Notes: generated by a model from the sequence alone, not told the origin. A stretch of 64,000 nt of DNA from Salinisphaeraceae bacterium (GCA_002683405.1 NYTH01000015.1:1-64000); one strand, 5' to 3'; shown: positions 38,929-61,067, counted from the stretch's first letter. Translations and numbers: made by a program.

Positions 38929-41523
38929 TTAGCGAAGCCGTCGACGAATCGAGGCCGGCTGAAAATCCTCCGGCGCGTACTGGCCGGTGGAAAAACGCGT
39001 CTGTCCGGACTCGTTGGTCAAACGCTCGGCCAGGTAGCGGCCATCGCGCAGATCGAAGATGAACACCGGCGCCGTGAAGCTCAAACGCGACCCGGCGTAC
39101 TGCGCGATATGACCCTCCTGGAAGCGCCACAGCTCGCCGGCCTCGTCGTAGTTGTCCACCATGAGAATCGACCAGCTGTCCTCGTCCAGATAGAACACCC
39201 GCTTACCGAACTGATGATCGGCGCCGCCGCGTTCAGTGGCCTCGATGACCCAGACCCGGTGCCGCTCGTAGCGCATGGCCTGCGGATCGGGGAAGCGCCC
39301 CTGCAGCAGCGTCGAATAGGTCAGCGACGGATCAAGCAGCTTGTACCCGTTGTAGGGCACGATCATTTCCCGGCGGCCCACCAGCCGCCATACATAGCGG
39401 TCGAACGAGCCGTTGTACATGTCGATCTGGTCGACGAACTGCAGGTTTTCCGTATTCGGCATGGGGTTGTCGTAGCCCACCGGCGGAATACGGAACAGCC
39501 GCTGCGTGCCGGGTACGCCAAACCAGATGCGCCGCTCGCCTTCCCGCTTGTTCATGGTCTCGTGCACCAGCGCCGTCCCGGTTGGCCGGCCATCGACATT
39601 CAGATAAGCCAGATACAGGGCGATGATGTTGTCATCGATGTCGGCCGGTCGGTTCAGGTTGCCGTAGCCAAACAACACCTCTTCCACGCTGTTGTACAGG
39701 CGAACATCGCCGTTTGGCGCGACCACGGCCTTCCTGGAACGCGATTCGAAGTCGCTGCCGCGATACCGCAAGCGATGGTTCCACATGGCCTCCACGCCGG
39801 TATTGGGCCGTCTGAACGGCACGCCCAGCCGCGCCCCGGTGAGCGAATCGGGATCGAGCAGACGGGCCCGCGACTGATTCGCCAGGCTGGCGCGGTAGAT
39901 CGCGTCGGGAAATGCCGCGCTGCGACGCGTGGGATAGACCGGCATGCGGTAATCGGGATAGCGCCGGAACAGGGCCAGATGCCCTGCCGAGAGCTGGTCG
40001 CGATGGGCGTCCAGGTTATCCCGCGTGATGGTGAACGCGGGCGAGTCCGCGCCATGGGGATTGCTTCCCGGCCCGGCAGATCGGTCTGCCGCCAGCCCGC
40101 CGCGCCAGGGAGGAATGCTGCCGCTGGCGTTGCCGGCCAGCACGGCGCCCACCGGGGTGAGATGGTCGCCGGCATCCGGCACACCCTCCGGCAGCGCGAC
40201 CGGCGCCGTCTCGCCGGTTGCCGACGTCTGCTGCGCCCCGCTCTCGCCGTTTGCCGCATCCGGAATACCACCGGATTGACCGCCGCCGGCCAGACCGCGA
40301 TCGTCGCTGGCGCCAGCCATCCCGGCGAGACCGGCAATTTCCACGGGCGCGAATCCTTCCGGACGCGCGTCCAGGAACTCGAGCCACTGACCCGCAAGAC
40401 TCGCCACTTTGGAATAGCCGCGCGCCTTCGAGAACGCGCCACGGGCTTCGGCATCCTGCGACAGCTGGTAGTGCGCCAGCGCCTTGGACATGTACAACTC
40501 GCCGGTACGGCTGCCAATCCCGCCACGATTCAATGCCGCCTGAAAGGCCTCCACGGCCTTGTCCCAGTTCGCCAGATCCATATGCAGCTGGCCGAGCTGG
40601 CTGAACAGTTCGGCGCTGCCGGTCAGATTGGCTGCCTGCTTGAGCGGTGCCAGCGCCTGACCGAATTCCTCGGCTTCCGACCAGGCGGCCGCCAGCAGCT
40701 GGTAATTGTCGGCCGCAGCGGGGATCTGGCCGGACGACATCCAGCCCTCGAGGCGCTCCGCAGCCACGTACGGCACGCCGGCCTCCATGTAGGCGCGGAT
40801 AAGTTGCAGCCGTCGGTCGGAAGAATTCAGCAGGCCCAGCCGTTCGGCCACCTGCAGCGTGGCGGCCGCTCGGGCGTCGTTGCCGGCGCGGGTTTCGATG
40901 GCAGCCAGTTGCAGCAGATAGCCCGGGTCACCAGGATCGAGCTCCAGCAGCTTTCGCAGCACGCCGGCGGCCTTGTCGTAGTTGCCGGACTTCATGAACA
41001 CGGCCAGCTGGAGGCGATAGAGCGCCTCGCCCCGGCTCCCGGGCACCGAGGCGTACTGTAGCGGGCGCACGGCCTTGTCCCACTGCCCCAGCTGCGCGTA
41101 GGCGTTGCCCAGCGCCAGCCAGGCCTCGCCGTCGATCCCGTCGGGCTTGCCACCACCCCGCAGCAGGGGCGCCATGACGTCCACGACCTTGCGGTGCTGG
41201 CCGTCGGCTGCGTACAGCCGGCCGAGGGTGGCGCGAATTTCCTCGTTGGCCGCGCCGGACAACGCATCGGTATCCAGCGCCTGCTGCAGATAGTTTCTGG
41301 CCTTGCCCGTGTCGCCGCTACTGGCCGCCTCGCTGGCGAGATGGCGCAGCGTCAGCGCGCGGGCGTAGCTGTCGCCCGGCATGTTCTGCAGTTCGCGCTC
41401 CAGGTCGGCTGCAGTTTTCTGCTCGGCCTCGCTGGCGGGCACCTCCTGCACCTGTGTGCGGTACTGCTGCGCCAGCACGGGGCTAGCGGCAAGCAGCAGC
41501 AGTGTGAGGAAAAGAAGCCGCAT
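38929..41523 (-). CDS. Periplasmic TPR protein fused to a DUF1329 domain
   Basis: 864-aa exported fusion. Signal peptide ending SPVLA; tetratricopeptide-type repeats about residues 35-385 (AWLALGNAYAQLGQWDKAV, LFSQLGQLHMDLANWDKAV); a flexible Gly/Ala/Ser linker about 395-450; then a full DUF1329 domain from ~452. That domain carries LTPVGAVLAGNASGSIPPW, AMWNHRLRYRG, RYERHRVWVIEATE and RVFYLDEDSWSILMVDNYD. TonB2-type operons usually end with a stand-alone TPR protein; here it is joined to DUF1329. The start overlaps the tonB stop (TGATG). Probably it connects the TonB machine with a lipid- or hydrophobe-handling outer-membrane partner (inference). Confidence 0.88.
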   Translation of the reverse strand: MRLLFLTLLLLAASPVLAQQYRTQVQEVPASEAEQKTAADLERELQNMPGDSYARALTLRHLASEAASSGDTGKARNYLQQALDTDALSGAANEEIRATLGRLYAADGQHRKVVDVMAPLLRGGGKPDGIDGEAWLALGNAYAQLGQWDKAVRPLQYASVPGSRGEALYRLQLAVFMKSGNYDKAAGVLRKLLELDPGDPGYLLQLAAIETRAGNDARAAATLQVAERLGLLNSSDRRLQLIRAYMEAGVPYVAAERLEGWMSSGQIPAAADNYQLLAAAWSEAEEFGQALAPLKQAANLTGSAELFSQLGQLHMDLANWDKAVEAFQAALNRGGIGSRTGELYMSKALAHYQLSQDAEARGAFSKARGYSKVASLAGQWLEFLDARPEGFAPVEIAGLAGMAGASDDRGLAGGGQSGGIPDAANGESGAQQTSATGETAPVALPEGVPDAGDHLTPVGAVLAGNASGSIPPWRGGLAADRSAGPGSNPHGADSPAFTITRDNLDAHRDQLSAGHLALFRRYPDYRMPVYPTRRSAAFPDAIYRASLANQSRARLLDPDSLTGARLGVPFRRPNTGVEAMWNHRLRYRGSDFESRSRKAVVAPNGDVRLYNSVEEVLFGYGNLNRPADIDDNIIALYLAYLNVDGRPTGTALVHETMNKREGERRIWFGVPGTQRLFRIPPVGYDNPMPNTENLQFVDQIDMYNGSFDRYVWRLVGRREMIVPYNGYKLLDPSLTYSTLLQGRFPDPQAMRYERHRVWVIEATERGGADHQFGKRVFYLDEDSWSILMVDNYDEAGELWRFQEGHIAQYAGSRLSFTAPVFIFDLRDGRYLAERLTNESGQTRFSTGQYAPEDFQPASIRRRLR

Positions 41524-42239
41524 CAGTCCCAGTTCAGCTTGCAGTCCTTGAGCTCGAATTCGAACTTCCAGGACACGCCAAAGGCCTTGCCCTTGTCGTT
41601 CTTCTGATAAAGCCAGTGCTGCAGGCTCTCGATCATGGGCTGTTCAAACAGCCCGCGGGGTTTGGCATCGATGATGCGAATGTTGGTGACCCGGCCACGG
41701 TCGGTCACATTGAAATTCGCCACCGCATAACCTTCCACGTTGCGCTCGCAGGCCTCGCGCGGAATCTGTGGCCGGGCCGTGGATAGCGGCACGAGATCGG
41801 GCCCGCCGCTGCCCGAGCCCTCGCCGCGGCCGTAGCCTCCGCCGCTGCCGCCGCCAGAGCCGCCACCCGATCCGCCCGAGCCAAAGCCGCCAAAACTCTT
41901 GCCCAGGGCGCCCGAGGCCGACACGCGCGCGTCGAACTCGATATCCGGCAGGGCATAGTCGGAATCCGCCCGCGGCGCCGGCACGGGGATGCCGCTGGGC
42001 CGGTCGAGACCGGGCACCGGGGGCGGATCACGCGGGGCCGGGCTGCCGCCGCCACCAGCGGTGGTCTGCGCGGGGTCAGTCTGCGGCGCCGGCGGCTTGT
42101 CCAGCCGCATGATCTTGACGGCCGGCTTGTCCTTCTTCTGCTCATCCTCGCGATCGGGCGGGGCCACCAGCCACTGCATGAGCCAGAACAGCCCCAGTGC
42201 GACCAGCAGCGCAGCGCCCAGCGACAGGCCGAAGCGCAT
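41523..42239 (-). CDS. tonB: TonB-family energy transducer
   Basis: 238-aa TonB-like protein: an N-terminal membrane anchor (LGAALLVALGLFWLMQWLV), a Pro-rich then strikingly Gly/Ser-rich spacer (residues ~120-150), and the C-terminal TonB fold (ERNVEGYAVANFNVTDRGRV, LFEQPMIESLQHWLYQ). It transmits proton-motive force from ExbB/ExbD to outer-membrane partners. The short, glycine-rich spacer and the downstream TPR gene match the TonB2/TtpC-type system rather than siderophore TonB1. A 58-bp gap separates it from exbD. Confidence 0.9.
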   Translation of the reverse strand: MRFGLSLGAALLVALGLFWLMQWLVAPPDREDEQKKDKPAVKIMRLDKPPAPQTDPAQTTAGGGGSPAPRDPPPVPGLDRPSGIPVPAPRADSDYALPDIEFDARVSASGALGKSFGGFGSGGSGGGSGGGSGGGYGRGEGSGSGGPDLVPLSTARPQIPREACERNVEGYAVANFNVTDRGRVTNIRIIDAKPRGLFEQPMIESLQHWLYQKNDKGKAFGVSWKFEFELKDCKLNWD

Positions 42240-42297
42240 CAGCGACGCTCTCCCGCGCCCCGGGTCGGCCGGTCAGTGAACGAGGCCAGAAAAAACA

Positions 42298-42708
42298 TCA
42301 CTCCGGCTTCGCGGCGATGGCCATGTCGTCAATGCCCGCCAGCCGGACCTGATCCATCACGCGCACCAGCAGACCGCTGGGGGCCTGTTCGTCGGCCTGG
42401 ATGATCACGGCCGCATCCGGTGTTTCCGCCTTCAGCCGCTCGACGGTGGCGCGCACGGCGCGCACGTCAACCGCGCGCCGGTCGATCCAGACTTCACCCG
42501 CCGGGTTCAGGCCGATAAGGATATTGTTGGATTCGCGCTGCTCGGTCGTGGCCGCCGTGGGCTGATCCACCGTAATGCCAGACTCCTTGACGAAAGACGT
42601 CGTCACGATGAAGAAGATCAGCATGATGAAGACGATGTCCAGCATCGGCGTCATGTTGATCTCGCTCTCCTCGCTCTCGTCCGCGTCGATACTCCGGCGG
42701 CGCCTCAT
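42298..42708 (-). CDS. exbD: ExbD/TolR-family proton-channel subunit
   Basis: 136-aa protein with one N-terminal transmembrane helix. The membrane Asp essential for proton movement is in INMTPMLDIVFIMLIFFIVT. A periplasmic domain (GIPLPVE-like region replaced by GITVDQPTAATTEQR, then IGLNPAGEVWIDRR, AVIIQADEQAPSGLLVRVMD) follows. It overlaps the exbB stop by 4 bp (ATGA). Confidence 0.94.
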   Translation of the reverse strand: MRRRRSIDADESEESEINMTPMLDIVFIMLIFFIVTTSFVKESGITVDQPTAATTEQRESNNILIGLNPAGEVWIDRRAVDVRAVRATVERLKAETPDAAVIIQADEQAPSGLLVRVMDQVRLAGIDDMAIAAKPE

Positions 42709-43289
42709 GAACCGAGCCTCCCGGCCGCCTGTCGGCCATAGGGCAGGCGGTCGGCCAGACGCCGCGCTTCCCGGTTGGCGAGACGGGGAAAACGGCTCGC
42801 GAAATACAGACCCGACAGCGCCACCACCATGCCGGCCATGGTGGGTACGGTGGCCTGGGAGACGCCGGCCGCCATGGCGCGCGCATCGGACGTGCCCTTG
42901 AGCGCAACCACGTCGAATACAGCAACCATGCCGGTCACGGTCCCGAGCAGACCCAGCAGCGGGCAGATTGCCACCAGCATCTGGATGGCCGGCAGACCGG
43001 CGCGCAGCTCCACGCGGGACTGCGAGATGAGCAGCCGGCGAATGGCCTGCGCCCGCCAGGATTGATGATCACTGCGCGACTGCCATTCGGTTTCGCGTCG
43101 CCGGTTGCGCCGCGGCGCGATGAACCGGAAGAAGAACAACCGCTCGAGAATCAGGGTCCACAACAGCAGCGTGACCGCCAGGATGGCCCACAGCGTCGGC
43201 CCGCCGGTGTCGATGAAACCGGCGAACCACTCCGGCAGCGGCGGCAGCAACGCCAGCCAGCCCAGCAGCGGCTGCAGGCTCTCATTCAT
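42705..43289 (-). CDS. exbB: ExbB/TolQ-family proton-channel subunit
   Basis: 194-aa MotA/TolQ/ExbB protein with three membrane segments: WAILAVTLLLWTLILERLFF, IQMLVAICPLLGLLGTVTGM and ATVPTMAGMVVALSGLYF. It forms the inner-membrane motor with ExbD. The start at 43289 overlaps the TtpC-like gene by 8 bp; an ATG six codons upstream is possible. It is smaller than ExbB1 and has the periplasmic N-terminus expected for ExbB2. Confidence 0.92.
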   Translation of the reverse strand: MNESLQPLLGWLALLPPLPEWFAGFIDTGGPTLWAILAVTLLLWTLILERLFFFRFIAPRRNRRRETEWQSRSDHQSWRAQAIRRLLISQSRVELRAGLPAIQMLVAICPLLGLLGTVTGMVAVFDVVALKGTSDARAMAAGVSQATVPTMAGMVVALSGLYFASRFPRLANREARRLADRLPYGRQAAGRLGS

Positions 43290-44631
43290 GCTGATCACGC
43301 CCCGCATCCGGTGTTTCCAGATAGCGCGCCAGCAGACCGGCGCTCTGTTCGTCCAGCACCTGAATCAGCCCGCGGCTGCGGGCCACCAGCAGACTGTGGG
43401 CAAACAGCAGGGGAATGGCCGCGATCAGCCCGAGTACCGTGGTCACCAGCGCCTGCGAAATGCCGCCCGCCATGAGCTTCGGGTCTCCCGTGCCGAACAG
43501 CGTAATGGCCTGGAAGGTCGCAATCATGCCGACCACCGTGCCCAGCAGACCCAGCAGTGGCGCGACGGCCGCCAGCAGCTTGACCAGCCCCTGGCCGCGC
43601 TGCAGACGGGGTACCTCGCGTAGCACGGCCTCGTCGAGCATCAGCTCGAGTGTCTCGGCGTCTTCGGTGTTCGCCTCACGGGCCGACTGCAGCACGCGGC
43701 CCAGGGGATTACCGGGCCTGGGGTCGGACAGCGATTTCAGCTGGGCCCGCACCCGTGCACCGGTGATCACCAGACGCACCAGCTGCAGCAGCGCCAGCAC
43801 CACGCCCAGCAGCCCCAGGCCGATGATGACGGCGCCGACTCCCCCGCCCTGCCTGACCCGCTCAATCAGGCCGGGCTTTTCAACCAGCAGCTCGAGCACC
43901 GAGCCGCGGGTCGGATCGATGGCCAGGCGCTGCAGGCCCTGCTCGGCCTCATGGAAGGCTTCGGCTTGCGCACGAACACCGGCGCCCGGCTGGCGCGCCA
44001 GCACCTTCAGCCCCGCGCCGGGCAGGTATTGCAGATAGTCCGCCCCCACGACGGCCGTGAAGGGGCCTACCCGCGCCACCGGCCTGGACTCGGCGTTACC
44101 TTCAACACCGATGACATCGGCTTCAAAGCGGCTGACCTTGCCGGTCTCGGTCATTTCCTGCTGCAGCAGGTACCACATGTCCTCAAGTTCGGTGGCGGTC
44201 GGAATCTGGTCACCCGCGGCCAGTTCGGACAACCGGCCGACACGCGCCGGAAACTCGGCCGAAATGATGGAGTCGTCCGCCACGGCCTGCAGATCACCCG
44301 CTGCCTGGCGAACTACGGCCACCAGCTGATTGAGATCACCCGCCTCCTCGTTGAGCCGATTCGACAGTGTCGTCAGTTCCTTCTGCAGGGCATCGAATTC
44401 GCCCTGCAGCGACTGGCTGCGCTTTTCCTGTACGCCGAGTTCGGCGCGGGCCTTGCGGAGCAGTTCCGCCTGCTCGTTCCGATTATTGACGAAGCGCCGC
44501 TCCCGCTCGGTATTCACCTGCTGCTGCTGTTTCTGCGTCTGGCGTATCTCGCCCAGCAGGGCGTCCAGGTCGGGGGCGGCCTGGGCCGTCAGGCTCGTCG
44601 TCAGCAGTAGCGCCGTTACCCAGGCCTTCAT
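43282..44631 (-). CDS. TtpC-like MotA/TolQ/ExbB protein with periplasmic coiled coil
   Basis: 449-aa protein: signal peptide (MKAWVTALLLTTSLTAQA), a periplasmic coiled-coil region about residues 20-115 (ERRFVNNRNEQAELLRKA), a globular segment, and a C-terminal ExbB-type channel domain with three membrane segments (GGVGAVIIGLGLLGVVLALLQ, LAAVAPLLGLLGTVVGMIAT, ALVTTVLGLIAAIPLLFAH). This matches Vibrio TtpC, the obligatory extra subunit of TonB2 systems. The start overlaps the DUF3450 stop (ATGA); the end overlaps exbB. Confidence 0.88.
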   Translation of the reverse strand: MKAWVTALLLTTSLTAQAAPDLDALLGEIRQTQKQQQQVNTERERRFVNNRNEQAELLRKARAELGVQEKRSQSLQGEFDALQKELTTLSNRLNEEAGDLNQLVAVVRQAAGDLQAVADDSIISAEFPARVGRLSELAAGDQIPTATELEDMWYLLQQEMTETGKVSRFEADVIGVEGNAESRPVARVGPFTAVVGADYLQYLPGAGLKVLARQPGAGVRAQAEAFHEAEQGLQRLAIDPTRGSVLELLVEKPGLIERVRQGGGVGAVIIGLGLLGVVLALLQLVRLVITGARVRAQLKSLSDPRPGNPLGRVLQSAREANTEDAETLELMLDEAVLREVPRLQRGQGLVKLLAAVAPLLGLLGTVVGMIATFQAITLFGTGDPKLMAGGISQALVTTVLGLIAAIPLLFAHSLLVARSRGLIQVLDEQSAGLLARYLETPDAGRDQHE

Positions 44632-45437
44632 GGCTGCTCACCGTCGTCCGCCACGCGCGGCGCCGGCACGGCAATCTCGACGAGCTGCGGCGCCGCCACG
44701 TCGCGGGCGACGCGGATGCCGCGCCGGATCGCGTCGCGGTAATCACCATCGAGCACGCGCCATTCGCCGGCTTCGCGATCCCAGTAACCGGCTTCGGCCT
44801 CGTCCGGCGTCAGATAAAACAGCATGACCCGACCCACGCGCAGGAATTCGACCAGACGGCTGCCTTCGCCGCTTGTCCGCGGAATTTCGCCGCGATAAGT
44901 GCCCATGGTGCGGCCGTATTCAGCCTCGGCCTGATAGGCCTCCAGCACCTTCCGATATTTTTCGGCCAGCGAGGTCTCGGGGTCGCTCATGGTCTGGCGC
45001 AGGTCGTCGATTCGCGCCTGGCGCTCGCCGGCGCGAAAAGGCAGATCGGCTTCGATGAAGCGCGCCAGTCCGTCGATCATGCGCAGCGTCAGCGGCTCGA
45101 TTTCCTCGCCCAGACCGCCCACGTCCTCAATACGCGCGGCCAGCCGGTCGCGCCGGCCACGCTGCTCCGAGACGATCCGCTCGAGCTCGCGGTTGTAGAC
45201 CTGAAGCTGCTGTGTCTTGCGAATGGCCTGCCGGTAGTTCTCCAGCATCTCGCGCGTCTGCTCGGACAACTGGTCGATCTTCTGCTGTGATCGCGCCGAC
45301 GACTGCACCGTATCGGACGCCGTATCCAGACTTTTCTGGACGTCGCTCTGCGCCACCGCTGTCAGCGGCCAGGCACAACTGCTTGCGAGCAGCAGCACCG
45401 AGGCTGTCGAACGGATTCGCCTCTGGAAATCAGGCAA
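44628..45437 (-). CDS. Periplasmic DUF3450 coiled-coil protein
   Basis: 269-aa exported protein, first gene of the TonB2-like operon. Signal peptide (RSTASVLLLASSCAWPLTAVAQ), a long coiled coil (about residues 25-100, DQLSEQTREMLENYRQAIRK, LERIVSEQRGRRDRLAARIE), then the DUF3450 core (MIDGLARFIEADLPFRAGER, RVGRVMLFYLTPDEAEAGYW). A TTG start at 45437 is chosen because AGGAGAGGAG lies 7 nt upstream; ATG at 45458 has no ribosome binding site. DUF3450 regularly precedes ttpC-exbB-exbD-tonB in gammaproteobacteria; its exact job is unknown. Confidence 0.85.
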   Translation of the reverse strand: MPDFQRRIRSTASVLLLASSCAWPLTAVAQSDVQKSLDTASDTVQSSARSQQKIDQLSEQTREMLENYRQAIRKTQQLQVYNRELERIVSEQRGRRDRLAARIEDVGGLGEEIEPLTLRMIDGLARFIEADLPFRAGERQARIDDLRQTMSDPETSLAEKYRKVLEAYQAEAEYGRTMGTYRGEIPRTSGEGSRLVEFLRVGRVMLFYLTPDEAEAGYWDREAGEWRVLDGDYRDAIRRGIRVARDVAAPQLVEIAVPAPRVADDGEQP

Positions 45438-45534
45438 TGGGGTTCTCCTCTCCTGCATGCCGACCGCCGCCACGATCAGCCCGTCATCCGGCGTCAATCT
45501 TAACAGTTTGCTTTCCCGATTTAGGACAGCGCTA

Positions 45535-45802
45535 GCCCGGATATTTCATGGGGGATCGCGAGTGAATTGCGAATTCGCAGCAAGTAGCGCGCCGGCCTGG
45601 AGCGTAAAGCCTAGCGCCAGCTAGGGTTTTAGCGAAGGCCAAGCGATACGCCGCGCCCCCGTAATCCACACGGCGCAAAGCGCTGCGATAGATTGGCGCG
45701 GAATCCACACTGTACCGACCAAAATGCTCCTAAAACTGCTTATTTCGGAGGCGTATCAGTTGTTTACACGCCCGCGCCAATCGCCCTCGTGAATATCCGG
45801 GC
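45535..45802. mobile_element. MITE-like element with terminal inverted repeats
   Basis: 268 bp bounded by GCCCGGATATTTCATG (from 45535) and its inverted counterpart ending GAATATCCGGGC at 45802; the outer 11 bp match exactly and the similarity continues imperfectly. A TA dinucleotide flanks both sides (45533-45534 and 45803-45804), as expected for IS630/Tc1-type target duplication. There is no coding capacity; an internal palindrome GCGAATTCGC lies at 45569-45578. It fills the 364-bp gap between the RND gene and the DUF3450 operon, and its right end with the flanking TA forms the RND stop codon. Confidence 0.7.
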
Positions 45803-48495
45803 TAATGCCGCAAACGTTCGGTCACCTGCGCCAGGCGCTGCGCCTGAATGCGATTCAGGTTGCGAAACGCCAGGGCCGCCGTGCGGGGGCTTCGCTTGCG
45901 CAGGCGTTCGAGATCACGCGCGCCAAAGCGCAGCAGGCGGCCGTCGGTCACGGCCTCGACATTGGCGGTGCGACGGCTGGAAAAATGGCCCACTTCACCG
46001 AGCACGGCGCCGCGCTGCAGGCGCGCCAGCTCTATCGCCTGACCCTCGCGATCCACCCAGACACGCAGTTCGCCGTCGATCACGACATACATCTCGCTGC
46101 CCTGCTCACCCTCACGCAGTACGCACTCTCCCGCCCGCACCGGCTCCAGGTTCGCAATGAGCGCGAACAGGCGTGCCCGACGCAGGCTCATGTCCTCGAA
46201 CAGTGGAATCGACGCCTGTGGCCGCTCACCCAGGTCCAGGCGCAACACGTCCCAAAGCGTGACGATCCGCACGCCCGCCGCCAGCGCCGGCGTGAAGGTG
46301 ACGTCGATGATCCACGCAATTCCCAGCGTGAATGCGGCCAACGCGCCGAACTGGGCCTGGTTCTGCAGGCTGCTGAAGCTCAGCGCGATGAAGCCGGCTA
46401 TGAGCGCCGCAGAGCTGTAGGTCACCGGCCGAAGCACGCTGCGCAGCGCGCTCACGGTGGCGCGGCTTTCGCTGGCCAGCCGCCGCGCATCCTGGTTGAA
46501 GCGGGCGAAGTAGTAGAGCGTGTCGTCCACCGCAATCCCCAGCACGATGCAGGCGACCAGGCTGGTGGTCGGGTTGAGCGGAATACCCGAATAGCCCAGC
46601 ACGCCGAAATACACCAGCACCGGAATGACGTTTGGCACCAGCGCCAGCGCACCGCTGCGGGCCGATGTGAACAGCCCCCACAGCAGCAGGAACACCACCG
46701 CCAGCGCGACGCCCACGGTCAGGAACTGGCCCCCGGTAATCGCGTCCACCGCATCGCTGACCAGCACGGGCGTCCCCGTGACCCGGCCGCTCATCTCCGG
46801 ATCCAGCCCTGCCAGTTCCGATTCCACCGCATCCACCAGGCTTGCGATGCTGGCGCTGTCGCTCACTCGAGCGTTGAGCAGGATATGCGCCTTGCCAAAG
46901 CCGCGGTCCACGAAGGTCGACAGCGCATCCGTGCTGCCGAACAGCAGGGTCTGGCGCACGGCGGTTTCCGTGTCGGGGATGCGATAGTGCGCCGCCTCGC
47001 CATCATGCAGCGCGCGATTGAGCACCTTGACCATGTCCGCCACGGATCGGCTGTAACCCACGTCGGGATGCTCGGCCAGCCGCGCCTGCAGATCGGCCAG
47101 GCGACGCAGCTTGTCCGGCTGGGCGAAGCCGCCGGAGTCGCTGGTTTCCAGCATGATGGACAGCGGCGTCGCGCCCGAAAAATCGCGATTGATCGTTTCG
47201 TGATCCACCCGCACCGGCGCGTCGGCGGCAAAGCCGCGAATATAGTCGGTGTTGGCCGTAATGCCCGGCATGCCCAGCAGAGCAATCACGCAGACAATTG
47301 CGCCGGCGGCCAGTATGGTCTGCCGATAGCGGGCGTTGAAATGCCCCAGCCGGACCGCCAGCCGCATGAACTGCCGCCGACCGGGCGGGCGCTTGAGCGC
47401 GCGGCAGCCGGACAGGCTGAACAGGGCCGGCAGCAGCGTCAGCGACAGCAGCGCCGTGAGCACAATGCCAACCGCGGCGAGCCAGGCGAAATCGCGCACG
47501 GCGGTCAGCGGTGACAAGGCGAGCGCCAGAAACCCCGCTGCGGTGGTCATGGCGGTGATCAGAAGCGGCACGGCCACTTCCCCGATAGCGTTGCGCACCG
47601 GCCGGTCGTGGTCGGCATGGCGCAGGATGCTGTTGACCATGTGCAGGCTGTAGGCGAGCCCGATCGTGATGACCACCGGTGGCACCATGGCGGTAATCAG
47701 ATTCAGCTTCCGCCCGGTCAGCACGATGAAGGCCAGCATGAGCCACAGCGCCAGGCCCAGCGTCGCCATGGGAATCACCAGGCCCCGTACGCTGCGGAAG
47801 CCGACTGCCAGGAATAGCGCGATAAAAACGAAGATGGCCGGAATCACGCGCCGCAGTTCGCGCACCAGCGCGTCCGACGTGGCCGCCTTGAGCACCGGCG
47901 GGCCGGCATACCGCGCCGCCATGCCGGGCGCCTTGTCCGCCACGATTTCACGCACCTGCGACAGCAGCAGGCCGCCGGCCTCGTTCGCTTTGCTCAGATA
48001 GACCACGATCGTGGTGGCGTCACCCTGACGAGTGACCAGGCTGTCGCGATAAAGCGGGTTGTCCAGCGCAGCACGCTTGAGCGCGCCGGGCTCGAGCGCG
48101 GCCTGCGTGAAGGGCGTCATGTTCAGCTCGTCATCGCGCGCGGCCAGCACGGGAGCCGTATCCAGTGACCAGACGCGCGCCACGCCCGGCAATGTCTGAA
48201 GCGCCTGCGTGATCTGCCCGATCGCCTGAAGGCTCGCAGCGCCGAACAGCTCGTCCGGATACAACGCCACGATGATCGCCTCGGTCTCCCCGAAATGACG
48301 ATTGACGCGGTCCAGGTTATCGCGCGCCTGGCCGGACACCGGTAGCAGGGCCTGCACCGACGGATTGATGCTCAGCCGCCACTGACCTTCGGCCCAGTCG
48401 TACAGCGCCAGGGTGGCCAGCGCGCCCAGCAGGCACCAGGTCACCAGCACGACCACCGGCCGCGAGTCAATCCATTGCGCGAGATACTGCCCCAT
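45802..48495 (-). CDS. MMPL/RND-family transporter with C-terminal cyclic-nucleotide-binding domain
   Basis: 897-aa inner-membrane pump. Residues ~1-750 form two SSD/MMPL repeats, each with one leading transmembrane helix, a periplasmic loop and a five-helix bundle (FIALFLAVGFRSVRGLVIPM; LVACIVLGIAVDDTLYYFARF, with paired Asp that could carry protons). Residues ~765-885 are a Crp-type cNMP-binding domain: VLREGEQGSEMYVVIDGEL and a phosphate-binding cassette with Gly833-Glu834 and Arg841/Arg842-Thr-Ala. Relatives move hydrophobic cargo and are often paired with LolA-like proteins. It lies 22 bp after the LolA-like gene, downstream of a nucleotide cyclase. Transport gating by cNMP is inference. 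Confidence 0.88.
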   Translation of the reverse strand: MGQYLAQWIDSRPVVVLVTWCLLGALATLALYDWAEGQWRLSINPSVQALLPVSGQARDNLDRVNRHFGETEAIIVALYPDELFGAASLQAIGQITQALQTLPGVARVWSLDTAPVLAARDDELNMTPFTQAALEPGALKRAALDNPLYRDSLVTRQGDATTIVVYLSKANEAGGLLLSQVREIVADKAPGMAARYAGPPVLKAATSDALVRELRRVIPAIFVFIALFLAVGFRSVRGLVIPMATLGLALWLMLAFIVLTGRKLNLITAMVPPVVITIGLAYSLHMVNSILRHADHDRPVRNAIGEVAVPLLITAMTTAAGFLALALSPLTAVRDFAWLAAVGIVLTALLSLTLLPALFSLSGCRALKRPPGRRQFMRLAVRLGHFNARYRQTILAAGAIVCVIALLGMPGITANTDYIRGFAADAPVRVDHETINRDFSGATPLSIMLETSDSGGFAQPDKLRRLADLQARLAEHPDVGYSRSVADMVKVLNRALHDGEAAHYRIPDTETAVRQTLLFGSTDALSTFVDRGFGKAHILLNARVSDSASIASLVDAVESELAGLDPEMSGRVTGTPVLVSDAVDAITGGQFLTVGVALAVVFLLLWGLFTSARSGALALVPNVIPVLVYFGVLGYSGIPLNPTTSLVACIVLGIAVDDTLYYFARFNQDARRLASESRATVSALRSVLRPVTYSSAALIAGFIALSFSSLQNQAQFGALAAFTLGIAWIIDVTFTPALAAGVRIVTLWDVLRLDLGERPQASIPLFEDMSLRRARLFALIANLEPVRAGECVLREGEQGSEMYVVIDGELRVWVDREGQAIELARLQRGAVLGEVGHFSSRRTANVEAVTDGRLLRFGARDLERLRKRSPRTAALAFRNLNRIQAQRLAQVTERLRH

Positions 48496-48517
48496 CTGTC
48501 GCGGTGCTGACGCCGTT

Positions 48518-49333
48518 TCAGTACTGCGGCAGCAGCCAGCCTACCGTGGCCGCGAGATAGAAACTCGCCCGGTTGAATATGGCGTTCGAGACGCCCTCGT
48601 CGTATTCCACATCCAGCAGGGTCATCAGGGTGTGGGTATTGCGCACGTGATCGTCCATTCGCAGTTCACGCGCCATCCAGCGCCCTTCGATTTCCTGCAG
48701 GGAATCCACCCTGGCGGCCAGCGTCTTCACATGCCGCGCACCCGGCTCGTAGAACTCGGCCTCGAGCGCCACGCAGGTCTGCTGATCCACGGCAAACACG
48801 ATGCGGTCATAGCCGCTGTCGTCATTCTCGCCCGGCCGCAGCTCCAGCCGATGCACGGCGCGACCGTCCATCTCGGCGTTGTCCAGCAGCGTGACCTCAC
48901 CGCCGGCAGACACAGCCCGCAGCTGCTTGATGTCCTCATAGCTGAAGTCGGTGTTGAGCATGCCGCTGGAGGCCTGCTTGCCGGAGATACGCCGCGTGCG
49001 GCCCACCGTGGGCAAATACAGATGCAGCGCGTCGTGATTCTTCCTGTCGATCATGAGATAGCTCACGCCCTCCAGCTCCAGCGGGGCGCGCACCTGCAAT
49101 GTGGCCCGCGTTTCGTCCGCCGAATAGCGCTTGAGGAAGAAGCGACTGCGGATGCGCTGACTGTTGCCGTCCACGTCCACGGCCCGCATCTCGACGTTCT
49201 GCACCATGGTGGATTCCGGCAGATTGGCCCGCGAACAGGTCCGAACCTCCTCGGCCGTGCGCGGCTTCGCCGGCGCGTGGGCGCTGACGAGCATGCCCGC
49301 CACAACGGTAGCCAGGGTGATGATCTTGTTCAT
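48518..49333 (-). CDS. Exported LolA-like (outer-membrane lipoprotein-sorting) protein
   Basis: 271-aa exported protein: signal peptide MNKIITLATVVAGMLVSAHA, then a LolA/LolB-type beta fold of the COG2834 class. Visible elements are VEMRAVDVDGNSQRIRSRFF, LHLYLPTVGRTRRISGKQ, SGMLNTDFSYEDIKQL and a C-terminal VRNTHTLMTLLDVEYDEG. Such proteins accompany MMPL-type RND pumps and are thought to accept lipid or lipoprotein cargo in the periplasm. The start overlaps the cyclase stop by 4 bp (ATGA); the RND gene follows after 22 bp. Confidence 0.85.
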   Translation of the reverse strand: MNKIITLATVVAGMLVSAHAPAKPRTAEEVRTCSRANLPESTMVQNVEMRAVDVDGNSQRIRSRFFLKRYSADETRATLQVRAPLELEGVSYLMIDRKNHDALHLYLPTVGRTRRISGKQASSGMLNTDFSYEDIKQLRAVSAGGEVTLLDNAEMDGRAVHRLELRPGENDDSGYDRIVFAVDQQTCVALEAEFYEPGARHVKTLAARVDSLQEIEGRWMARELRMDDHVRNTHTLMTLLDVEYDEGVSNAIFNRASFYLAATVGWLLPQY

Positions 49334-52300
49334 GCAGTATCCAGTTTTTCCGCCTGTTCCAGAGCCAGCCGTGCCCGCGCCGGCGCGCCGAACTGTTCAA
49401 ACAGCGACGCTGCCTGTGCGAACGCCGTGCGCGCGGCGGCGCGATCCCCCGCCTGCATATGGTACTCGGCTCGAAGCAGGTGCATCGGGGCGATAAAGAA
49501 TCGGGCGCCGGTACGCGTCAGCAAAGTCGTAATGGACTTCTGCAGCGTGATCAGTTGCGCCGCGTCCGTTTCCGTCGCCAGCAGGCAGTCCGCAAGCACC
49601 AGTCGGGCGCGCAGGGCCCAGAGGTCGGCGGCCATCGCGTCGGCCTGCTCGACAGCCTGCCTGGCGTGCATCAACGCGCTGTCCTTGCGCCCGGCCTTCA
49701 GCAGCACGGCTGCGCGCAAGGCCTGCAGCAGTGGGGCGAAGGGGTGGCCCTGGCGACCGGGGGTCGCATATGCATCGCCCCGGTCAAGCGCGTCGAGCGC
49801 CTGCTCGAAATCACCCCGCAGATAACAGGCGGAGGCCTGCGCCCGCCAGGCCAGCGCAAGAAACAGCGGGCTGCCGAAGGCTTCGGCTTCCTCAATCGCC
49901 ACGCGCGCATCGTCCGCGGCGCCGTCGGGATCGCGGGCGAGGTAGGCCAGATCGACCCGGTTCGAATGAATCCAGCTGCTGCGCTGCTCCTCCCGGCGGG
50001 CCACGGTGAGCGCATCGGCCATATCACGGCGGGCGGTGCGCAGATCACCCCGGGCGGCAAGGAACATGGCACGCAGCGCGCGCGACAGGAAATTTTCCTG
50101 CGTCAGCGGGCCACGGCTCCAGGCTTCGGGGCTGAGCTGCTCCAGCGCGTCCAGACCGGACTGCAGCGCGCCCGCGACGAAGAACACGTTGAGTAGCGGC
50201 AGGCGAAACCGGCCCAGCAAGGCCCGGCCTTCGGGCCCCGTCGCGGTGGCGATGGCCTGCCTTACCCGCATCAGCGCCTGGTCGGTGTGGCCGCGATTGA
50301 GCAGCACCGACGCGCGCGAGAGCAGCAGCTCGGCGTACTCGTTGGGCCGCGCATGATCGGCACAGAGCGCCTCGGCGACCTGCCAGGCCTGATCGACCTC
50401 GTCCGGCTCGACACCAATCAGTGCGGCCACACGGTTGATGCCGGCCCGGGCCCGGATCCTGTGGGCGGTTGCCGAGGCGGCGTGCGCCGCCGCATCGGCC
50501 CATTCGCGTGCCCGGCGGTAACACTCCAGCGAGACGCGCAAATCCTGCTGACCGGCCAGCAGACCCGCCTCGATCGACCAGGCCGCAGCGATCTCCGGCC
50601 GCCCCGCCAGCCCATTGTGCCGGGCAATCTGCGCGGCTTCATCTGCCATGAGCTGTCTGTCCGCTATCGTTTCTTCAAGCCAGACGGCAGCCTGCAGATG
50701 CAGCGCGCGCCGGGCGCTTTCCAGCTGACCGTCATAGGCGACCTCCCGCAGCAGTGGATGCACGAACTGCAGCCGGCCCGGGCGAGCGCGTTGCAGAAAA
50801 CCACCGTCAAGCAGCGCCGCCAGACAGTGTTCCGTTTCCGGGGCCAGCGCCGAGAGCATCCGGCTGTCGGGCTCCATACCCAGCACCGACGCCACATACA
50901 GCACGCCGCGCGGCGCCGGATCGAGACGGTCGATGCGCGCTGCCAGCAGGGCCTGAATGGAGGGCGGCAATGTATCCGGCACGTCGCCGTCCCGCAGGTC
51001 TCTCGCGCCGATGGGCCCGGCGAGCAGGCCCCGGCTTTCCAGGTCGCGAATACATTCCTCTACATAGAGCGGGTTGCCGGCGGCCCGCTTCACGATGCGC
51101 TCGCCCAGGGCCTGCAGAGCGGGTGCCGGGCCCAGCAGCCGGGTGGCCAGCTGGCGACAGTCGTCATCGCCGAGAGCCGAAAGACGAATCACGTCGTCTG
51201 CCGCGCGGGACGCCCAGACCAGCGTCGCGTCGGGGCGGTGGTTGTAGATCAGCAGCAGCGGGGCCTGAAGTCCCCGTTCCGAAAGATGCCGGAAGAACAT
51301 TCCGCTCTGGGCATCCGCCCACTGCAGGTCATCCACCACGATCACGGCTGCGGCATGCCGATGCACGAGCACCTGACTGCACAGCGCCAGCAGGCGGGCC
51401 ATCCGGTCCTCGGGCGCCACCGAGGGCGCGTCCGAATCGGCCGCTTGCAAACCCAGAAACTCGTGCAGCAGCGGCGCTACGCCCGGCTGGGTGTGGCCTT
51501 CCGATGACAGCGCATCGGTAATCTTGCGCCGGGCACGCGCCGGCGGATCATCCCGGTCGATATCGAAAAAGCCGCGCACAAGCTGCTGCACCGGACCGTA
51601 GGCGAGCGCCTGTTCAAAGGGTGGACAGGTCACGTGAATGGTGCGCGCGCCGTCGCGCCGCGCGAGCTCCGTAAATCGGCGGCACAGCCGGCTCTTGCCG
51701 ATACCGGCCTCGCCCTCCAAGACGACCAATCGTCCACGCCGGCCTTGCCGCAGGCAAGACAAATGATCGGCGAGCTGTTCAAGCTCGTGGTCGCGCCCGG
51801 TAAACGGCGAGAGCCCTCGCCGCTCGGCCCACTGCAGCCGATCGCTCAGGGCATGCTGCCCGGTCAGCTCGAAGACGGCCTGCGGCTGCGCCACGCCCTC
51901 CAGTCGCATCGGGCCCAGTTCGCGCATCAGGAAATACCCGTCCAGCCAGGCGGCCGTGTGATCGGTCAGATAGACGCTGCCCGGTTCGGCCATGGCTTCC
52001 ATTCGGGCGGCCAGGTTTACCGTATGGCCCTGAGCGGTGTAGTCCATGCGCAAATCATCGCCGATGGCGCCCACCACAACACCGCCGGAATTCAGGCCGA
52101 TGCGCAGCGAAAGCGTCAGGCCGCTTTGCGGCTGCAGATCCTCGGCGTAGCGGCGAACGGCATCGCGGATGGCCAGAGCCGCCGCGGCCGCGCGGCGCGC
52201 GTGTTCCTCCAGTGCCAGCGGCGCACCGAACAGGGCCATGATGCCATCGCCGGTGTATTGATTGACCGTGCCACCGGCCCGATGCACCTCGGCGGTCAGA

Positions 52301-52593
52301 ATCCTGAATAGCCCGTCGAGGATGGCGTGCCAATGCTCGGCGCCGGCCCGTTCGGCCAGTCGGGTTGAGCCCACCACATCGGCAAACAGCACGGTGACCT
52401 GTTTGTGCTCGCCCTGCGTGACCGCCGTGCGCTGGCGCAGATGATTCCGCAGGTGCGCCGGCGTATAGACCATCTGCGCCGGTCGCGGCGCGCCGCCGCC
52501 CAGGCTCACGCCGCACTGATTGCAGAAGCGCGCATCACCGGGATTGTCGTGCCGACAGGCTTCACAGCGAACGGTCACAACCGCATCAGGCAT
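49330..52593 (-). CDS. Class III nucleotide cyclase with zinc ribbon, AAA ATPase and TPR domains
   Basis: 1087-aa signalling protein. Residues 10-27 form a CX2C-X10-CX2C zinc ribbon. The class III cyclase domain is ~62-245 with metal Asp72 (LFADVVGSTRL) and Asp116 (YTGDGIMALFG). Thr186 stands at the position of the usual purine-selecting Asp (class IIIb hallmark) and Gln112 where Lys is common. An AAA/STAND-type ATPase follows (Walker A GEAGIGKS 294-301, Walker B VIVVDDLQWADA), then ~500 residues of TPR-like helices. It probably senses a ligand or partner through the TPRs and makes cAMP. Translationally coupled to the LolA-like and RND-cNMP genes, so the product may act on the pump (inference). 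Confidence 0.87.
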   Translation of the reverse strand: MPDAVVTVRCEACRHDNPGDARFCNQCGVSLGGGAPRPAQMVYTPAHLRNHLRQRTAVTQGEHKQVTVLFADVVGSTRLAERAGAEHWHAILDGLFRILTAEVHRAGGTVNQYTGDGIMALFGAPLALEEHARRAAAAALAIRDAVRRYAEDLQPQSGLTLSLRIGLNSGGVVVGAIGDDLRMDYTAQGHTVNLAARMEAMAEPGSVYLTDHTAAWLDGYFLMRELGPMRLEGVAQPQAVFELTGQHALSDRLQWAERRGLSPFTGRDHELEQLADHLSCLRQGRRGRLVVLEGEAGIGKSRLCRRFTELARRDGARTIHVTCPPFEQALAYGPVQQLVRGFFDIDRDDPPARARRKITDALSSEGHTQPGVAPLLHEFLGLQAADSDAPSVAPEDRMARLLALCSQVLVHRHAAAVIVVDDLQWADAQSGMFFRHLSERGLQAPLLLIYNHRPDATLVWASRAADDVIRLSALGDDDCRQLATRLLGPAPALQALGERIVKRAAGNPLYVEECIRDLESRGLLAGPIGARDLRDGDVPDTLPPSIQALLAARIDRLDPAPRGVLYVASVLGMEPDSRMLSALAPETEHCLAALLDGGFLQRARPGRLQFVHPLLREVAYDGQLESARRALHLQAAVWLEETIADRQLMADEAAQIARHNGLAGRPEIAAAWSIEAGLLAGQQDLRVSLECYRRAREWADAAAHAASATAHRIRARAGINRVAALIGVEPDEVDQAWQVAEALCADHARPNEYAELLLSRASVLLNRGHTDQALMRVRQAIATATGPEGRALLGRFRLPLLNVFFVAGALQSGLDALEQLSPEAWSRGPLTQENFLSRALRAMFLAARGDLRTARRDMADALTVARREEQRSSWIHSNRVDLAYLARDPDGAADDARVAIEEAEAFGSPLFLALAWRAQASACYLRGDFEQALDALDRGDAYATPGRQGHPFAPLLQALRAAVLLKAGRKDSALMHARQAVEQADAMAADLWALRARLVLADCLLATETDAAQLITLQKSITTLLTRTGARFFIAPMHLLRAEYHMQAGDRAAARTAFAQAASLFEQFGAPARARLALEQAEKLDTA

Positions 52594-52704
52594 GTCTACA
52601 CTCGCGACGCTGCCGGCCAGAGGCTTTCATTTGGCCCGTCCCCCATGACGTTGCAACTGGCTTTACCGCAGAATACGTCACCTTGGAAACCGCGGACAGG
52701 CGTC

Positions 52705-53064
52705 ATGGTCGAACAAACGGTTCTTGGGGTGTTCTTTTTTCTGCTGGTGGGGCACGCGCTGGGCGACTTTGCCCTCCAGACCGACTGGATGGTGCGGCAC
52801 AAGAATCATCGCGAGCCGCCGCCAGAGAACAGCTGCCGGCATCCCCGCCACATCTGGATTCACCTGTTGACTGCGCACGCGCTTGTGCACGGCGGCGCGG
52901 TGGCGCTGACTACCGGCATGGTCGGCCTGGGCATTGCCGAAACATTGGCGCACTGGCTTATCGATTACGGCAAGTCCGATGGCCGCTACGGCTTTCACGT
53001 CGACCAGTTGCTCCACCTGGGCTGCAAGGCGGTCTGGCTGATGATCTGGATCGTGGCTGGCTGA
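52705..53064 (+). CDS. DUF3307 small membrane protein
   Basis: 119-aa protein with three or four hydrophobic segments (VLGVFFFLLVGHALGDFALQ, IHLLTAHALVHGGAVALTTG, LLHLGCKAVWLMIWIVAG). It has the conserved polar pattern of DUF3307: HALGDF, HLLTAHALVH, HWLIDYGKSD, DQLLH. The start at 52705 has GGACAGG upstream. It is divergent from the large cyclase gene (111 bp between starts) and 10 bp ahead of the membrane cyclase, so it is probably co-transcribed with the latter. Function unknown. Confidence 0.8.
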   Translation: MVEQTVLGVFFFLLVGHALGDFALQTDWMVRHKNHREPPPENSCRHPRHIWIHLLTAHALVHGGAVALTTGMVGLGIAETLAHWLIDYGKSDGRYGFHVDQLLHLGCKAVWLMIWIVAG

Positions 53065-53074
53065 GGAGGCGCCG

Positions 53075-54352
53075 ATGCTGGTGATCATGCCCGATATTCG
53101 CGCCTTCTGGCGCCGCCAGGTGCTGCGCGGCACCCGCAACAGCATGGACTACCCTGCGCGGCGCCGCGTCATCCTGGTTAACCAGGGCGCTTTGCTAGGC
53201 ATCCTGATTTCGCTGTTCTACACGCTGGCGGCGGCGACCTACTCGCCGCGGGTACTGTGGCCGCTGATTCTTTTCATTCCGCTGGAGATGGCGGGCTTTG
53301 CGCTGGTGCTTTGGCTCAACAAGCGCTACTGGCATACCGCCGCGCGGGCGGCCTCGATTTTCGTGCCGGCGGCCCTGATCGTCATGGCCGCCTGGATGCT
53401 GGGCAACGGCGTAGGCGCGCAGCTGTACTTCTTCGTGCTCTGGACGGTGGCTTTCCTGCTCTACAGCCGCGAAGAGCGCTGGCTGTTTCTTCTGGCCGCC
53501 AGCATCTGGATCGGCAGCTACATCTGGATTCAGCTGTCCTTCGGTACACCCTATCTCACGTTGCCCGAAGCGGAGCGCTTCAGCGCCATTGTCTTCACGT
53601 TGAATGCCATCGGCAGTTTCGCCCTGCTGGGCGCCGTGCTGTCGCTGTTCTACGGCGAAATCCGCCGCACGGAGACCGAACTGCAGCGGCAGTACCGGCT
53701 TTCCGAGGATCTGCTGGCCAACATCCTGCCCGCCCGCATCGCCGAGCAGCTCAAGGACGGACCGGAAACCGTGGCGCAAGGCTTTTCCAACGTGACGCTG
53801 CTGTTCGCCGATATCGTCGGGTTCACTCGCCTGGCCGAAAAACTCTCGCCGCGGGAAGTGGTCGACCTGCTCAACCAGATCTTCTCCCGCTTTGACCTGC
53901 TGACCGAGCGCCTGGGCCTGGAGAAGATAAAGACCATCGGTGACGAGTACATGCTGGCAGGCGGGCTGCCCGAGCCCCGTCGCGGGCACGCCGCGGCGGT
54001 GGCCGAGGCTGCGCTGCAGATGATGGAGGCCATCGAAACTATCAACCGCAAGACCGGTCGCAACCTGGACCTGCGTATCGGCATTCACAGCGGCGAAGTC
54101 GTGGCGGGGGTGATCGGCTCGAGGAAATTCAGCTATGACGTCTGGGGCGACACCGTGAACACCGCCTCACGCATGCAGTCGCAATCGGTCCCGGGGCGCA
54201 TCCAGGTATCGCAAGCCGCCTACGAGCGCCTGCAGCATGCCTTCGAGTTCAAGCCCCGCGGCAGCCTCCGGGTACGCGGCAAGGGCCGCATGAAGACCTG
54301 GTATCTGGAGGCACGCAAGGTCGAACTGGACGAGCCCGCCGTCAGCGAGTGA
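53075..54352 (+). CDS. Membrane-bound class III adenylate cyclase
   Basis: 425-aa protein with about six N-terminal transmembrane helices (residues ~35-195), a short coiled linker (RRTETELQRQYRLSEDLLANI) and a catalytic class III domain. Metal residues are Asp246 (LFADIVGFTRL) and Asp290 (TIGDEYML). Lys286 and the Asp of YDVWGDTVNTASRM select ATP, and the Asn/Arg of that motif stabilise the transition state. All catalytic residues are present, so it should make cAMP as a homodimer. The ribosome binding site GAGGAGG is strong. The stop abuts the convergent unknown gene within TGATCA. Confidence 0.92.
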   Translation: MLVIMPDIRAFWRRQVLRGTRNSMDYPARRRVILVNQGALLGILISLFYTLAAATYSPRVLWPLILFIPLEMAGFALVLWLNKRYWHTAARAASIFVPAALIVMAAWMLGNGVGAQLYFFVLWTVAFLLYSREERWLFLLAASIWIGSYIWIQLSFGTPYLTLPEAERFSAIVFTLNAIGSFALLGAVLSLFYGEIRRTETELQRQYRLSEDLLANILPARIAEQLKDGPETVAQGFSNVTLLFADIVGFTRLAEKLSPREVVDLLNQIFSRFDLLTERLGLEKIKTIGDEYMLAGGLPEPRRGHAAAVAEAALQMMEAIETINRKTGRNLDLRIGIHSGEVVAGVIGSRKFSYDVWGDTVNTASRMQSQSVPGRIQVSQAAYERLQHAFEFKPRGSLRVRGKGRMKTWYLEARKVELDEPAVSE

Positions 54353-60308: not shown

Positions 60309-61067
60309 ATGTCGTCTTCGAGCTGCCTGATCAAGAAACTCAGCCACTATGTCGAGTTGTCGCAGCACGACCGCGACCTGCTGCAGGATCTGGAGAAATC
60401 GTCCACGGCCGTATCGGCCGGCACGCATCTGCGGGAAGGCGGCCAGGCCTATGACGACCTGTTCGTGCTGTCCGAGGGCTGGCTGTATTCGTTCACCATA
60501 CTCCCGGACGGTCGCCGTCAGGTGCTGCAGGTATTTGTGCCCGGCGACATCGTCGGTATTTACGACACGCCCTTCGCGCACGCCACCCATGATCTGGCTG
60601 CCGCGACCGATGCGGTGGTCTGCCCGTTCCCCAAGGACGGGCTGGACCCGATCTTTTCGGAATCTCCGGCGCTGACGGGTCTGATGTTCACCTTTGCGCT
60701 CATCGACCAGGCCGTCTTTCTTGACCGGCTGCGCGCGCTGGGCCGCATGGACGCGGTCACTCGCGTGGGGCACTTCCTGTTCACGGTGATCTCGCGTCTG
60801 CGGCTCACCGACCACGACACCGAAAACGGGCACTACTTCCCCCTGACGCAAAGCGACGTGGCCGACGCGACGGGCCTGACCAACGTCTCGGTCAGCAAGG
60901 CTGCATCAGTGCTGCGCGAAAAGGGTTTCGCCAAATGGAGCAACCGTCGTCTCACGATTCTGGACGAGACGCGGCTGGTGGAGTTTGCGTCGTTCATCAA
61001 TCGCTACGAGAACATCGACATCAGCTGGTTCCCGCAGCCGGGCCGGCTGCACCTGGGGCGCTCATGA
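60309..61067 (+). CDS. Crp/Fnr-family transcriptional regulator
   Basis: 252-aa regulator with an N-terminal effector beta-roll (SAGTHLREGGQAYDDLFVLS, LQVFVPGDIVGIYD) and a C-terminal winged helix (LTQSDVADATGLTNVSVSKA, VLREKGFAKWSNRRLTI). The cNMP phosphate-binding Arg is missing, so it is not a Crp-like cAMP receptor. The Fnr four-Cys Fe-S signature is absent too (only Cys6 and one more in this half). The recognition helix lacks the usual Glu-x-x-x-Arg pair. The effector is therefore unknown. The stop overlaps the LuxR-type gene (ATGA). Confidence 0.88.
   Translation: MSSSSCLIKKLSHYVELSQHDRDLLQDLEKSSTAVSAGTHLREGGQAYDDLFVLSEGWLYSFTILPDGRRQVLQVFVPGDIVGIYDTPFAHATHDLAAATDAVVCPFPKDGLDPIFSESPALTGLMFTFALIDQAVFLDRLRALGRMDAVTRVGHFLFTVISRLRLTDHDTENGHYFPLTQSDVADATGLTNVSVSKAASVLREKGFAKWSNRRLTILDETRLVEFASFINRYENIDISWFPQPGRLHLGRS

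Follow-up and report, generated by a model that had tools for sequence, protein, structure and literature searches.

We analysed an operon of three consecutive minus-strand genes (52593..45802) in a 64,000-nucleotide stretch of DNA from a Salinisphaeraceae bacterium (GCA_002683405.1, NYTH01000015.1:1-64000; this whole stretch is referred to as the window). Open reading frame (ORF) calling and Pfam agree on the gene order that an initial annotation of the window had described: first a class III nucleotide cyclase that also has AAA and TPR parts, then a LolA-like protein whose gene overlaps that of the cyclase by 4 bp, and last a resistance-nodulation-division (RND) pump of the MMPL type. The pump ends in a cyclic-nucleotide-binding domain (CNBD), and the operon suggests a class of pump under direct second-messenger control that has not previously been described. 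Control of RND pumps is usually ascribed to gene expression and substrate, and there is a real chance that the operon embodies a new regulatory principle for such pumps. The literature search turned up no RND pump of this kind, with either the tail or the cyclase; subscription journals were little covered, so that absence there proves little.

The pump, the cyclase and the LolA-like protein

The pump (897 aa; 45802..48495, minus strand) begins 22 bp past the LolA-like gene. Pfam assigns to it MMPL in two stretches (3e-37) and, at residues 785-868 (45892..46143, minus strand), the cNMP_binding domain PF00027 (2.3e-18). Two MMPL repeats and the RND fold, the features of HAE3/MMPL transporters, are both present. 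The nearest NCBIfam model is HAE3 (TIGR00921), matched at 189.9 bits and thus under its cut-off of 351.9, which leaves the pump short of confirmed membership; against the curated HpnN model it reaches 106.6 bits (cut-off 751.85) and so is not HpnN by score. An AlphaFold2 (AF2) model of the whole pump (predicted local distance difference test, pLDDT, 90) matches MmpL4/5 over ~680 residues at 3.0-3.7 Å (Z ~43), and residues 1-750 of the model also align with AcrB-type pumps and NPC1-like proteins. The conserved motif V656-D657-D658-T659, in the membrane part of the second repeat, is a likely proton relay.

The tail combines the CNBD fold with the Glu and Arg of the phosphate-binding cassette. 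An AF2 model of residues 740-897 (mean pLDDT 88) finds its best Foldseek matches in the CRP family, with Thermus CAP superimposing at 1.6 Å over 135 columns, and also matches GlxR, M. tuberculosis CRP and Clr; a profile search with the tail retrieved PKA and PKG domains, SthK and CRP. Within the cassette (R828-G829 ... G833-E834 ... R841-R842-T843-A844; 45964..46011, minus strand) the Arg is invariant, and the Glu is kept in at least 90% of sequences, across 81 tailed pumps from several phyla. By RND topology, a domain after the last RND helix is cytosolic; because the tail follows that helix, we infer that the CNBD lies in the cytosol. Two tailed pumps from Desulfobacterales (L107:4493-7816 and L117:8755-12012) carry an extra GGDEF-like domain with a degenerate signature C-terminal to the CNBD, possibly giving two second-messenger domains per pump.

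The cyclase (1087 aa; 49330..52593, minus strand) comprises a weakly matched N-terminal zinc ribbon, the catalytic domain (Guanylate_cyc, PF00211, 1.2e-25; residues 60-236; 51886..52416, minus strand), an AAA_16 ATPase domain (3.2e-24; residues 263-449; 51247..51807, minus strand) with Walker A residues G297-x-G299-K300-S301 in invariant columns, and a TPR-rich C-terminus read from the sequence together with a weak profile match to TPR chains. It is expected to be soluble, with no membrane span. The residues that mark class III cyclases, two metal-binding Asp and the transition-state Asn and Arg, are all present (D72, D116, N193 and R197). Over 17 linked homologues the metal Asp pair, Q112, T186 and R197 are invariant; N193 varies among relatives. 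The positions of the substrate-selecting Lys and Asp are occupied by Gln (Q112) and Thr (T186) in all 17. The linked cyclase should be active, to judge from these residues, which do not separate ATP from GTP as substrate. Between its profile and soluble adenylyl cyclase there is a weak match (3e-7 over 46 residues).

The LolA-like protein (271 aa; 48518..49333, minus strand) matches PF17131 (E 5.4e-39; 134.2 bits, above the cut-off of 30) and begins with a signal peptide read from its sequence (MNKIITLATVVAGMLVSAHA), in keeping with a periplasmic location. Its name comes by homology, and it may serve as a carrier of lipid or lipoprotein.

Linkage of cyclase and pump across lineages

The operon was traced through 61 related genomes of one order, a full-length tailed pump being scored at E < 1e-60. 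The order appears to be Nevskiales, judging from its named members (Solimonas, Nevskia, Sinimarinibacterium, Hydrocarboniphaga and Salinisphaerales metagenome-assembled genomes, MAGs). A full-length tailed pump occurs in 42/61 genomes, and the 46 loci retrieved consist of 42 main loci and four or more second copies. In all 46, including every main locus, the LolA-like gene adjoins the pump, and in all 46 the tail is kept, with the motif GE-x7-RTA or one near it. RMA or RLA replaces RTA in second copies of the pump (L073, L075, L076 and L077), and these loci have no cyclase.

The same cyclase lies directly upstream at 17 of the 42 main loci, in five of the six families (f1, f2, f3, f5 and f6); named relatives with the linked operon include Sinimarinibacterium flocculans (L119) and Solimonas soli (L089). 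Other neighbours, namely KPR (ketopantoate reductase), SDR, GreB and SelO, are limited to f2 or to f2 and f5; the cyclase linkage therefore outlasts most other synteny, and chance neighbourhood was rejected for the order on this ground. Two loci have tandem cyclases, and a third (G027), divided between two contigs, probably does.

The linkage recurs with unrelated cyclases in an alphaproteobacterial order (Rhodospirillales), where different cyclases stand upstream of the LolA-like gene and the tailed pump in 3 of 12 loci. In one MAG (L123, pump 29% identical) the genes of a CHASE2-type class III cyclase, the LolA-like protein and the pump follow directly on one another, a second locus (L218, pump 61%) repeats this arrangement, and at the third (L220, pump 45%) the cyclase differs in its N-terminal part; the nine other tailed pumps of this order have no cyclase. 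Farther from the pair, a CHASE2 cyclase lies ~1.1 kb downstream of the pump gene in a Desulfosarcina MAG (L117) and another ~3.5 kb upstream of LolA at L085. With 4 to 11 class III cyclases in each of the genomes involved, we estimate the chance of immediate same-strand adjacency at ~0.1% per locus. The initial annotation had set beforehand, as a test of the coupling it proposed, whether tailed pumps ever neighbour a cyclase; in both the order of the window and the alphaproteobacterial clade they do. Small stand-alone CNBD proteins are encoded near the LolA-pump pair in the latter clade (L218:9321-9857, L219:6376-6819 and L123:16354-16641).

Cyclase copies also occur apart from the pump in six genomes (L204-L207, L209 and L210), and inspection of their neighbourhoods found no other pump or CNBD partner. 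Linked and unlinked copies are mixed together in a quick tree of the cyclase, as repeated relocation or loss would give.

A proposed mechanism and its alternatives

We favour, as a moderately probable reading of the sequence evidence, an exporter of lipid or other hydrophobic compounds of the HAE3-LolA kind that is regulated by a cyclic nucleotide, so that the operon would be a signalling-plus-transport module. A ligand or protein would switch the soluble cyclase through its AAA/TPR part, and the cyclase would release a cyclic nucleotide, most likely cAMP, into the cytosol. This messenger would bind the cytosolic CNBD hanging off the last membrane helix of the pump, and the bound CNBD would turn transport up or down. 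Driven by protons, the pump would extract its cargo, a lipid or another hydrophobic compound, from the inner membrane, for the LolA-like protein to receive in the periplasm. If so, envelope lipid or hydrophobe transport would come under post-translational second-messenger control, and bacterial cAMP would gain a direct membrane target besides the Crp-type regulators. We are evenly divided on a wider proposal: that RND exporters under direct cyclic-nucleotide control, each paired with its own cyclase, form a class not described before, in which unrelated cyclase types were recruited to the LolA-pump pair in Nevskiales and in the alphaproteobacterial clade and the messenger controls delivery of lipid or hydrophobe to the outer membrane without a transcription factor.

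Several observations weigh against such coupling. No cyclase adjoins the pump at 25 of the 42 main loci, where the tail is nonetheless intact. For 19 tailed pumps in other classes of the phylum, the vicinity holds no same-strand cyclase and, in all, one on the opposite strand, and most tailed pumps of Desulfobacterota and Myxococcota also lack a nearby cyclase. A general bacterial rule that tailed pumps stand next to cyclases was rejected on the evidence of the 19. Two of ~60 tail-less pumps (L184 and L197) have a cyclase ~2.4 kb upstream. These two are HAE3 pumps accompanied by a LolA-like gene, and the upstream class III cyclase, of ~360 aa, is on the same strand. In the co-occurrence search across genomes that the initial annotation had recommended, presence of the cyclase is associated with presence of the pump (24/42 genomes versus 1/19, p about 1e-4), but the association comes mostly from the window's own family, of which 16 other genomes have neither pump nor cyclase, and p is 0.58 when that family is left out. 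We therefore rejected the presence/absence correlation as strong evidence. The coupled cyclase-pump module put forward in the initial annotation thus holds in that linkage is found in two clades and the CNBD and cyclase motifs are conserved, and it has to be narrowed to particular lineages, most tailed pumps elsewhere being without an adjacent cyclase.

One alternative we consider unlikely, though the least so of three: that the tail binds cyclic nucleotide but senses the general cell pool, the adjacent cyclase being one supplier among others and its linkage historical. The tail is retained where no cyclase adjoins it, in Desulfobacterota, Myxococcota and other lineages as well as within the order, and relatives have several class III cyclases each. 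Against a general pool stands the genome of the window itself. A class III search of it returned three matches: the two cyclases of this locus, which are the only strong ones, and a weak fragment that is interrupted; no class I cyclase was found in the genome, and there is one match to CYTH, a domain that is more often a triphosphatase. The persistence of the linkage beyond most other synteny, and its recurrence with unrelated cyclases, also argue against a historical accident.

Besides the pump, PF00027 matches in the genome of the window a patatin-like protein, an Fe-S cluster oxidoreductase and a Crp/Fnr-type protein (60309-61067) whose cassette lacks the Glu and Arg. A LuxR-type helix-turn-helix ORF follows the gene of the Crp/Fnr-type protein. 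Since no Crp-like protein with an intact cassette is among the PF00027 matches of the genome, the pump belongs to very few candidate cAMP receptors, three by our sequence-based count, and the question of direct control is for this reason directly testable.

Improbable, in our judgement, is a second alternative, in which the CNBD serves for structure or dimerisation and has lost nucleotide binding, the cyclase acts elsewhere and the genes are co-transcribed without being coupled. It draws on the cassette, which the initial annotation had read as apparently intact. The Gly-Glu (G833-E834) and Arg-Arg-Thr-Ala (R841-A844) elements are indeed there, but the Glu-Arg stretch, a further point against nucleotide control, is one residue under the canonical length of CRP, PKA and HCN in the window and close relatives, the spacing being standard in distant tailed pumps. 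Asp takes the place of the cassette Glu in a few tailed pumps, some second copies depart from RTA as described above, and the tail model closes with a long C-terminal helix like that of CRP dimers. An invariant Arg and a near-invariant Glu over 81 sequences would nevertheless be unexpected in a domain that binds no ligand. The third alternative, that the AAA/TPR part regulates transcription or assembly of the operon in the manner of MalT or LuxR-type STAND proteins, with cyclase activity secondary, fits the large STAND-like C-terminus and the Gln in place of the expected Lys, but is very improbable given that Pfam finds no DNA-binding domain in the window cyclase, that the catalytic Asp pair and Arg are invariant and that the sensor parts are quite different in the linked cyclases of the alphaproteobacterial clade, which leaves the cyclase domain as the element that linked cyclases share.

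Neighbouring genes and comparison with known systems

Two genes diverge from the operon on the plus strand. A DUF3307 gene (52591..53064) keeps this divergent position beside the cyclase in families f1, f3, f5 and f6, and whether it is part of the module is uncertain. The next gene (53075..54352) encodes the second class III cyclase, a membrane protein of the MASE7 sensor type. Alignment shows that this protein retains both the Lys and the Asp found in classical adenylyl cyclases (KTIGDE and YDVWGDTVN), and it has an orthologue (43%) at the same locus in a genome of a different family (G018). Downstream of the pump on the minus strand lies a DUF3450-ExbB-ExbB-ExbD-TonB-TPR set (38929-45497; Pfam and NCBIfam), which in three f5 loci (L040, L058 and L072) starts at most ~100 bp past the pump end and is also close to the pump in some f2 loci. 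The MASE7 cyclase and the DUF3450-TonB-TPR set were absent from the list in the initial annotation. Scanning 45300-53200 for a sigma-70-type promoter consensus gave no match, a negative of little weight in a GC-rich genome.

Pairing of a LolA-like protein with an RND pump is by itself ordinary. HpnN is a hopanoid pump among the HAE3/MMPL transporters. The HAE3/MMPL systems with LolA proteins, HpnN and AmeABCD, have the pump superfamily and, if our reading holds, hydrophobic cargo in common with the window locus; unlike it, they have no cyclic-nucleotide domain or cyclase described. In AmeABCD of Castellaniella, AmeB is a LolA-superfamily member (DUF1329) whose gene stands beside that of the pump AmeD (PMC6394551). 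The LolA relative of the window is of PF17131 rather than DUF1329, and no outer-membrane DUF1302 partner of the AmeABCD type was seen at the window locus.

The bacterial cyclic-nucleotide-gated channels MlotiK1 and SthK are, like the window pump, membrane transport proteins with a C-terminal CNBD, and the profile of the tail matches them; they are ion channels, whereas the pump is of a proton-driven type. The cyclase is laid out like members of the TOMM kinase/cyclase family, in which ATPase and TPR parts come after the cyclase domain. Mycobacterial Rv0386 has the same succession and ends in a LuxR DNA-binding domain; it probably has Gln at the Lys position as well. We know of no transporter linkage for cyclase-AAA-TPR proteins of the Rv0386 or TOMM type.

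ATPase and TPR-like parts are found in the mammalian soluble cyclase too. In the exchanger SLC9C1, which bears a CNBD, cAMP shifts the gating (PMC6052114), and soluble adenylyl cyclase is its coupled partner (PMC6660944). The transporter fold of SLC9C1 is unrelated to that of the pump, SLC9C1 is eukaryotic and it has a voltage sensor; the likeness is an analogy of wiring and not homology. In that sense mammalian SLC9C1 with soluble cyclase, a transporter with a cytosolic CNBD tied to a class III cyclase, is the closest known counterpart of the operon described here.

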